The position numbers and the translations under genes are program-made. A DNA stretch of 64,000 nt, taken from contig MVQI01000046.1 of NCBI GenBank assembly GCA_002067795.1, positions 1 to 64,000 on the forward strand, written 5' to 3'. This stretch comes from Methanosaeta sp. PtaB.Bin039 (GTDB taxonomy: Archaea > Halobacteriota > Methanosarcinia > Methanotrichales > Methanotrichaceae). Within the stretch, counting starts at the first letter, position 1; each line of letters starts with the position of its first letter. The notes under the pieces were generated by a model that saw nothing but the letters and a program-made list of their open reading frames with translations, made no database searches and was not told the DNA's origin. Of this stretch, positions 30,569 to 33,500 are shown in pieces.

Positions 30569-33500
30569 GTGGGGCAAAAGATGTGCTGTCATTTCAATCC
30601 CGCTCGGGCATTCCGGGACCTTTCATTTGTCGATCTCAACTGCATAGCTGCCAGGACCTTGCCGTCACAATGGATTCGCTATATATATATATATATATAT
30701 ATATATATATATATATATTCTTGTATCCGCGCCGCCGGTCGCAAATCGATTGGGCTCTTCCCTGCGGCCTTATGTGTGCTTATCGCGGCCTTAATCCTGG
30801 TTCCTTTTGCCGGGGCGGTGACGGTCAGCTCCAGCGGTAGCTGGTCTGGTGCCGGACCTGGGACCCCCCATTGCCTGTGGTACTCCCCCGACGGCACACA
30901 GGTCAGGTATGGGGACAACAATGCCCAATCGCCATGCCCATCTGATCACAACCTGCAGAGCGGATTTGGATTTGTGGGCGTCTCAGGCGTCAATGTCCCT
31001 GACAATTCCGATTTCGTCGTCGGCACATTCACCCATTTCAACAGGCCTGTCTATTCCGGCAGTTCTCCGATGAACTACGTGGACCTCAATGTGCAGATAC
31101 AATTCGATTCAGGGCCGACCGAGACCTTCACCTACCGCATGAACCTGGTGGAGACCCCCAACACCGGTACCTGTTCGAGCTGCCCAACCTGGGGATATCC
31201 GGACTTCACCTGCGAGACTCCATGTCCCGACCTCGTGACCATAGACATGAGCATCCAGGACCGTATAATCACGGTAAATGGAGTGGACTACACCCTTCAG
31301 ATGGTTGGATTCATTCCATCTGGGACCGTCGTCGACCATTTCATCACGCAAGAACGAAAGGAAAACGTGGCCCAGCTTGTGGCCAAATTGATAAGGGTCA
31401 ATCGGATCATAACCGTTGAGAAGCTTGTCAACGGTCAGAACATCACTTCGGCTCCCGGGCCGACCATTCCAGACGGCTGCCCGGTATCTTGGACCTACAG
31501 AGTCAGCAATCCTGGAAACGTGCCGCTGTCCGGCGTTACGTTGGCAGATGATCATGTGACTGTTCCAGCCGCCCACACAGGCGATGTCAATGGCAATTCG
31601 CTGTTGGATCCTGGCGAGACCTGGACGTATTCAGCATCAGGAACAGCTACGCCCGGCCAGTACTCAAATGTTGCCACAGCCCACGGTACATTCGCCGGCA
31701 CAACTGTAAACGACACCGATCAGAGCTGGTATTACGGGTGCAGCCGGCAGGTGACTGCGCCACCTTCTCTGCAGGTCAATTGTACCTCGGAGATCCCAGC
31801 AGCCGCCAGCAGCCTGCACGAATTCAACAGCACCGGAGGCGTAATCGCAAACTGCGGCCAAGCGGTCTCCATATCCCATATCGATGTTTATGGCAACGGA
31901 GAGGGCTGCCCGCAAGATCCGCAGATCGTGACCAGAAGATACACATTGTCTTATGCCTGTGGCGCTGACCTGAACTGCAACCAGACTATAACCGTGGTTG
32001 ATGTGACGCCGCCCGTATTGGTCTGTCCATCCGACGTGACAATTTCGTGCAGCGACTCTTCCCTGCCGGAGAATACCGGCTTTGCCACAGCCACCGATAA
32101 CTGCGGCGCCTCGGTGAATATCACCTATAATGACCAGGTCATTCCAGGCGACTGCCCAGATCAGCGGACGATTGCTCGCACCTGGCGGGCCGAGGACAGC
32201 TGCGGCAATGTGGCCACCTGCACTCAGACTATAACTGTAGTTGACACGACTCTTCCCGTGATAGTCTGTCCTTCAGACGTGACAATTTCGTGCAGCGACT
32301 CGTCCTTGCCAGAAAACACCGGCTTTGCCACTGCCACCGATAACTGCGACGCGTCGGTGAACGTCACCTACAGCGACCAAATTACTCCAGGAACTTGCCC
32401 AGATCAGCGGTCGATATCTCGGACCTGGCGAGCTGAGGACAACTGCGGCAATGTGGCGACCTGCACTCAGACTATAACTGTAGTTGACACTACCCTTCCC
32501 GTGATAGTCTGTCCTTCAGATGTTACGATCTCGTGCAGCGACTCGCATCTTCCAGAGAACACCGGCTTTGCCACTGCCACTGATAACTGCGACACATCAG
32601 TGAATATCACATACAGCGACTTTGTAACACCAGGATCTTGCCCAGATCAATGGTCTATCTCTCGGACCTGGCGAGCTGAAGACAACTGCGGCAATGTTGC
32701 CACCTGCACCCAGACGATAACTGTAGTTGACACTACCCTTCCCGTGATAGTCTGTCCCTCAGATGTCACGATCTCCTGTAGCGACTCATCGCAGCCGGAG
32801 AACACTGGCTTTGCGACAGCCACCGACAACTGCGACGCGTCGGTGAACGTCACCTACAGCGACGAGATTACTCCAGGGTCCTGCCCAGATCAGCGGACGA
32901 TTGCTCGCACCTGGCGGGCCGAGGACAACTGCGGAAATGTTGCGACCTGCACTCAGACGATAACTGTAGTTGACACGACTCTTCCCGTGATAGTCTGTCC
33001 CTCAGATGTCACGATCTCGTGCAGCGACTCGTCCTTGCCAGAAAACACCGGCTTTGCCACTGCCACCGACAACTGCGACGCGTCTGTGAATATCACCTAT
33101 AGCGACGAGATTACTCCAGGATCTTGCCCAGATCAGTGGTCGATCGCTCGCACCTGGCGAGCTGAGGACAACTGCGGCAATGTGGCTGCCTGCACTCAGA
33201 CGATAACTGTAGTTGACACGACTCTTCCCGTGATAGTCTGTCCCTCAGATGTCACGATCTCCTGTAGCGACTCATCCCTGCCGGAGAACACTGGCTTTGC
33301 GACAGCCACCGATAACTGCGATACGTCGGTGTATATCACCTACAGCGACGAGATTACTTCAGGAACTTGCTCAGATCAGTGGTCGATCGCTCGCACCTGG
33401 CGAGCTGAAGACAACTGCGGGAATGTTGCCACCTGCACCCAGACGATAACTGTAGTTGATGTGACACCGCCCGTATTGGTCTGTCCCTCAGATGTCACGA

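Follow-up and report, generated by a model that had tools for sequence, protein, structure and literature searches.

The window analyzed here, a 64,000-nt stretch of DNA from Methanosaeta sp. PtaB.Bin039, carries an uninterrupted TA dinucleotide tract near the 5′ end of a giant adhesin-like open reading frame (ORF), and the arrangement of start codons around it suggests a slippage-sensitive three-state translational switch, i.e. a candidate contingency locus. Whether the tract controls the reading frame in this way we regard as an evenly balanced question, while true phase variation at this putative switch is a more tentative proposition, which we hold with some doubt. By a contingency locus we mean a perfect repeat with a unit that is not a multiple of 3 and a length far beyond chance, in which gain or loss of units alters the frame or the start of a gene with a surface- or environment-facing product, and in which the length differs among cells or strains and expression switches reversibly. 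The features of the locus are collected in Table 1.

Table 1. Sequence features of the giant adhesin-like gene and its leader (positions in the window).
Feature	Position	Strand	Basis
Best non-tract BRE/TATA-like promoter, AAAAATTCTTATATT	30354..30368	+	Consensus matrix scan with assumed weights; consensus match only
Arg-rich mini-ORF, 35 codons, with SD-like GGGAGA; may encode a leader peptide or be fortuitous	30427..30534	+	Sequence; SD energy -5.2
Giant adhesin-like ORF, 3786 aa from GTG30569	30569..41929	+	Open reading frame
GTG, in frame with the giant protein at TA units = 1 mod 3 (present length, 19)	30569..30571	+	Frame enumeration
ATG, in frame at present length, weak SD-like GGGG	30581..30583	+	Frame enumeration
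TAG stop closing the third frame	30645..30647	+	No start codon between TAG and tract
TTG, nearest in-frame start upstream of the tract at present length	30659..30661	+	Frame enumeration
ATG30670 frame: 56-aa abortive product at 19 units; giant-protein start at 2, 5, ... 17, 20	30670..30840	+	Frame enumeration
(TA)19 T dinucleotide tract, read in any frame as alternating Tyr-Ile over 13 codons	30680..30718	+	Sequence, repeat scan, shuffles
Predicted signal peptide: basic n-region IRAAGRKS, hydrophobic core ~30767-30811, cleavage-like site between AGA and VTV	30722..30817	+	Alignment; AxA in homologs matches
Mature N-terminal domain, choice-of-anchor K / adhesin peptide-binding-domain fold	30818..31405	+	NF038131, PDB profile, AlphaFold2, Foldseek
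DUF7507 domain	31445..31714	+	Pfam
About 25 tandem 81-residue HYR_4C modules, 243-bp units, 80% matches	31975..38074	+	Repeat scan, Pfam
HYR domain	38318..38572	+	Pfam
DUF11-rich C-terminal region to the stop codon	38600..41929	+	Pfam

The tract is 100% perfect over its 39 bp and is not a product of chance: (TA)19.5 had no match in 100 dinucleotide-preserving shuffles of the window, and TA runs of five units were never generated by such shuffles. In the whole genome (2.45 Mb in 82 contigs), six tracts of at least 5 units were found with a pattern that would miss tracts beginning with A and ending with T, and only the tract described here, the longest TA tract of the genome, reached at least 7 units. 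Its flanks have a GC content of 0.55. Poly-G runs of at least 9 nt are absent from the entire genome, which is therefore not evidently rich in contingency loci. A search for the same upstream DNA in 50 genomes of the family, including the source genome, returned the self-match only, with none in the 49 others. In the leader RNA, the UA tract can fold into a 17-bp hairpin (z -2.3 in RNA folding, an uninformative value), and Rfam searches of the window and the leader yielded only low-scoring chance matches to animal miRNAs, which arise from the UA repeat. We also considered the Tyr-Ile repeat as a second membrane segment and rejected this, as its 13 residues are too short.

For every number of TA units from 1 to 25, we constructed the leader computationally and enumerated all frames. 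When the number of units leaves a remainder of 1 upon division by 3, as in the 19 units assembled, TTG30659, ATG30581 and GTG30569 are in frame with the giant protein; a remainder of 2 (17 or 20 units) places ATG30670 in frame; and a remainder of 0 (18 or 21 units) leaves no start codon, since the third frame is closed by the TAG at 30645 and offers no start after it. Gain or loss of a unit thus alters the start or the frame of the gene. The ORF is open from 30569 to 41929 and 3786 residues long from its GTG. The first-pass annotation had placed GTG30569 and ATG30581 in frame, with ATG30670 out of frame and stopping at 30840, and had proposed that one TA more or two fewer would swap ATG30670 with the two upstream codons. 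The enumeration bears out all of this, but its list of starts had missed the in-frame TTG30659 and the startless third frame, and what it described as a switch, while mechanically sound in that a change of length alters the start or frame, involves three states (weak starts, ATG30670, or no start) rather than a simple swap. It had also noted correctly that the stretch from the tract to the signal segment offers no ATG, GTG or TTG in frame: none precedes the hydrophobic core, within which the first in-frame candidate, GTG30776, is found, and the TTG directly 3′ of the tract is out of frame. A strong SD is absent from all candidate starts. Upstream of the tract no clear coding signature was found, and codon-usage scoring of the 37 codons there did not tell the frames apart.

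Directly 3′ of the tract, the giant frame encodes the basic residues IRAAGRKS with no start codon of their own, and the only later start before the cleavage site, GTG30776, falls in the core, so that translation should come through the tract. In an alignment of homologous N-termini from Methanothrix/Methanosaeta MAGs and other genomes of the family, the core retains basic residues on its N-terminal side and an AxA site on its C-terminal side, and the starts of homologs, where assignable, mostly lie 10–30 codons before the core, with longer leaders in a few. It is most likely that translation enters upstream of or at the tract, and to this extent the earlier claim that it passes through the TA repeat finds support. 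Signal cleavage would presumably take place between AGA and VTV. With 2 or 5 units, ATG30670 would give rise to MDSLY(IY)SCIRAAGRKSIGLFPAALCVLIAALILVPFAGA, an ordinary-looking signal peptide with an n-region little longer than the 10–12 residues seen in several homologs; this resemblance suggests that ATG30670 may be the native or ancestral start, and the assembled 19 units may represent a low or off state.

No long TA tract was found at the 5′ ends of the homologs checked, so that the switch is not conserved, which speaks against the proposal. While a contig profile search with the unique N-terminal region returned no match, one with the N-terminal alignment yielded seven loci, mostly from Methanothrix/Methanosaeta, and the two of these seven that were new to the set of homologs are also without a long TA tract. 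Paralogs of the N-terminal domain were not found in the same genome, where weak matches occurred only further along the query, outside the domain.

In the mechanism that we propose, the gene of this Methanothrix-type methanogen would code for a large secreted adhesin, and (TA)19 would lie downstream of the start codons and ahead of the hydrophobic core, in the translated and later removed n-region of the signal peptide. Which start is in register would depend on the unit count modulo 3, and slipped-strand mispairing by plus or minus one 2-bp unit would shift the gene among two translated states of different strength and one untranslated state. As the tract is located in the cleaved segment, the mature protein would stay the same.

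The predicted product fits such a role. Its mature N-terminal 196 residues score 102.8 bits against the choice-of-anchor K family (NF038131), with a cut-off of 30, over positions 1–168 of 169. A profile of eight homologs matched MpAFP and a Vibrio protein (the FrhA peptide-binding domain) in the PDB with E-values from 8e-22 to 2e-16, and an AlphaFold2 model of the domain, with a pLDDT of 85, gave as its first 14 Foldseek matches exclusively the peptide-binding domains of MpAFP from Marinomonas primoryensis and FrhA from Vibrio cholerae (E about 1e-10 and a TM-score of about 0.65 when normalized by query length). The domain is homologous, in its sequence profile and in its predicted fold, to the peptide-binding-type domain of these RTX adhesins; in contrast to MpAFP and FrhA, the protein is archaeal, its Sec-like signal peptide is followed by this domain as the N-terminus of the mature form, and it has HYR_4C and DUF11 repeats. 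Family searches found no RTX domain in the giant protein, and no C-terminal anchor was recognized by eye in 38600–41929. In such adhesins, a peptide-binding domain has been described that binds a C-terminal tripeptide (PMC12077191). With a predicted peptide-binding-type head on a long repeat stalk, the giant protein is best described as an adhesin candidate. It would presumably be exposed at the cell surface, to judge from the sequence pattern of the signal peptide, the adhesin-type head and the repeats, in line with its initial description as a surface protein. The roughly 25 similar 243-bp modules could also change in number via recombination. Further along the window, FeoB is represented by two minus-strand ORFs, 45964-47268 (FeoB_N with GTPase) and 47265-47975 (Gate/FeoB_C), which share a 4-nt overlap, the second having a strong SD; the gene is either split or frameshifted.

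To place the tract in a wider context, we examined TA tracts throughout the class, in which 23 of 238 genomes contain tracts of at least 11 units. Nearly all of the about 42 tracts classified, which include some of 10 units, are intergenic, with AT-rich flanks (GC mostly 0.13–0.40). Besides the window tract, the other clear case of a coding TA tract with normal GC is a (TA)10 in the same family (L058, G007:C82:17554-17573), which breaks the frame of a DUF2254-like membrane-protein gene, the match to DUF2254 being weak. In 13 homologs of this gene a single frame runs from the part upstream of the tract site into the part downstream. The frame would be kept with 5, 8 or 11 units but is lost with 10; with 5, the gene would match its homologs in length. 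As far as the assembled sequence goes, the locus shows either that a coding tract has expanded in the family or that the assembly is wrong by one or two units. Like the tract in the window, it is a coding TA tract in which the number of units sets the reading frame; unlike it, it is found in mid-gene, is assembled in a frame-broken form, and does not belong to an adhesin. A possible further coding tract, (TA)13, lies inside an open 238-aa frame without a Pfam match (L116, G169:C37:40316-40342). Elsewhere, a (TA)11.5 tract is located about 70–110 nt upstream of an ORF for a secreted protein that has FG-GAP-like repeats and a length of roughly 1000 residues or more (L126, G144:C4:13577-13599); stop codons intervene between the tract and the ORF, and any action would therefore be on transcription.

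The main rival to the switch, which we consider rather unlikely, is that the tract is effectively fixed, or that the assembly miscounts it by one or two units, with the gene starting from ATG30670 (if there are really 17 or 20 units) or from TTG30659/ATG30581, and with the repeat having grown neutrally out of a short run of TA where the n-region tolerates it. The source assembly is a draft, and contig breaks at TA tracts greatly exceed chance expectation: 8 of the 36 TA tracts on contigs are found no more than 120 bp from a contig end, against 0.5 expected (about 16-fold). Such an excess fits polymorphic and equally hard-to-assemble tracts, and the count of 19 should therefore not be taken as exact; moreover, loci of this kind may be under-represented in draft genomes. 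The short basic n-region that ATG30670 would provide with 2 or 5 units, similar to those of homologs, agrees with a fixed tract as well, as does the presence of full-length MutL. Against this, the assembly runs across the tract, which sits within a contig of 75 kb, and a perfect 39-bp dinucleotide tract is slippage-prone, so that its invariance would need explaining. Mismatch repair suppresses dinucleotide slippage, and with MutL in the genome slippage may be corrected and the switch might be slow; for the same reason, loss of mismatch repair, for which MutL was the gene checked, is not supported as the origin of the tract. In vitro, slippage occurs with archaeal PolB and PolD (PMC4134008). 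It is quite improbable that the tract arose by accidental expansion while the 5′ end decays, with a gene that is silent at 19 units and is turning into a pseudogene. The best-placed ATG, ATG30670, does yield only the 56-aa product at this length, and the other starts are weak, but the remaining 11.4-kb frame is fully open across the 25 repeats and the C-terminal domains, and such openness would be short-lived without selection.

Instead of being translated, the tract could be a promoter or leader element, in the form of an extended TATA box, with a transcript that starts downstream and a protein initiated at GTG30776 or at a non-standard codon; its length would then tune transcription and not the frame. 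By its score the tract indeed passes for a TATA box, which would put starts at about 30714–30742, TA tracts in related genomes are mostly intergenic, one homolog (L011) carries (TA)5 some 39 nt ahead of its ATG, and promoter switching by (TA)n is known in hif (PMC2651432). However, initiation at GTG30776 would dispense with the basic n-region, although the frame keeps IRAAGRKS and homologs keep basic n-regions; this codon has no SD, and no usable start with an n-region is present downstream of the tract. A slightly better BRE/TATA (with the assumed weights) is found about 320 nt upstream of the tract, at 30354, with a transcription start predicted at about 30387–30391, so that the tract would fall inside the transcript, about 290 nt from its beginning. 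We infer that transcription proceeds from upstream of the tract, and we find an element acting on transcription an improbable explanation, if less so than decay of the gene. Just 3′ of this best promoter match, the mini-ORF contains seven successive Arg codons and shares its frame with ATG30670; it has no Pfam match.

Returning to the translational switch, its counterparts in Haemophilus influenzae are genes with tetranucleotide repeats at their 5′ coding ends. As in the window, these repeats are perfect and short, their unit length is not divisible by 3, and they occupy the 5′ end of surface-related genes that have start codons in more than one frame upstream, as in lic1A; the number of units there determines high, low or no translation, as is proposed here. 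The present case differs in that it involves a TA dinucleotide in an archaeon, that the repeat would encode the n-region of a signal peptide, and that it is known here from one assembled length in a single genome of the species. Tetranucleotide tracts of this kind are the closest in logic, and the closest case with the same unit is the hifA/hifB fimbrial promoter of H. influenzae, in which slippage in (TA)9-11 alters expression (PMC2651432). The latter shares with the window a TA unit and a gene for surface adhesion, but the hif tract spaces promoter elements, whereas the window tract is most likely translated. In the literature searched, whose coverage left subscription papers largely outside, we found no case of simple-repeat phase variation in archaea, and a 2025 review of phase variation sees archaeal phylogenies as a future expansion of known loci (PMC11868660).

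Simple-repeat phase variation has been documented almost entirely in bacteria, and the locus described here, if the interpretation is true, would be a case of an archaeal adhesin subject to translational phase variation by a simple repeat. It is conceivable, though we put it forward with reservation, that methanogens of the Methanothrix family use coding TA tracts, such as those in the signal-peptide region of the adhesin and in the DUF2254-like gene, as true contingency loci that generate heritable high, low and off variants. Methanothrix builds the granules of anaerobic digesters and lives in tight partnerships, and a stochastic adhesin switch would therefore bear on aggregation and on interactions with phages and partners.
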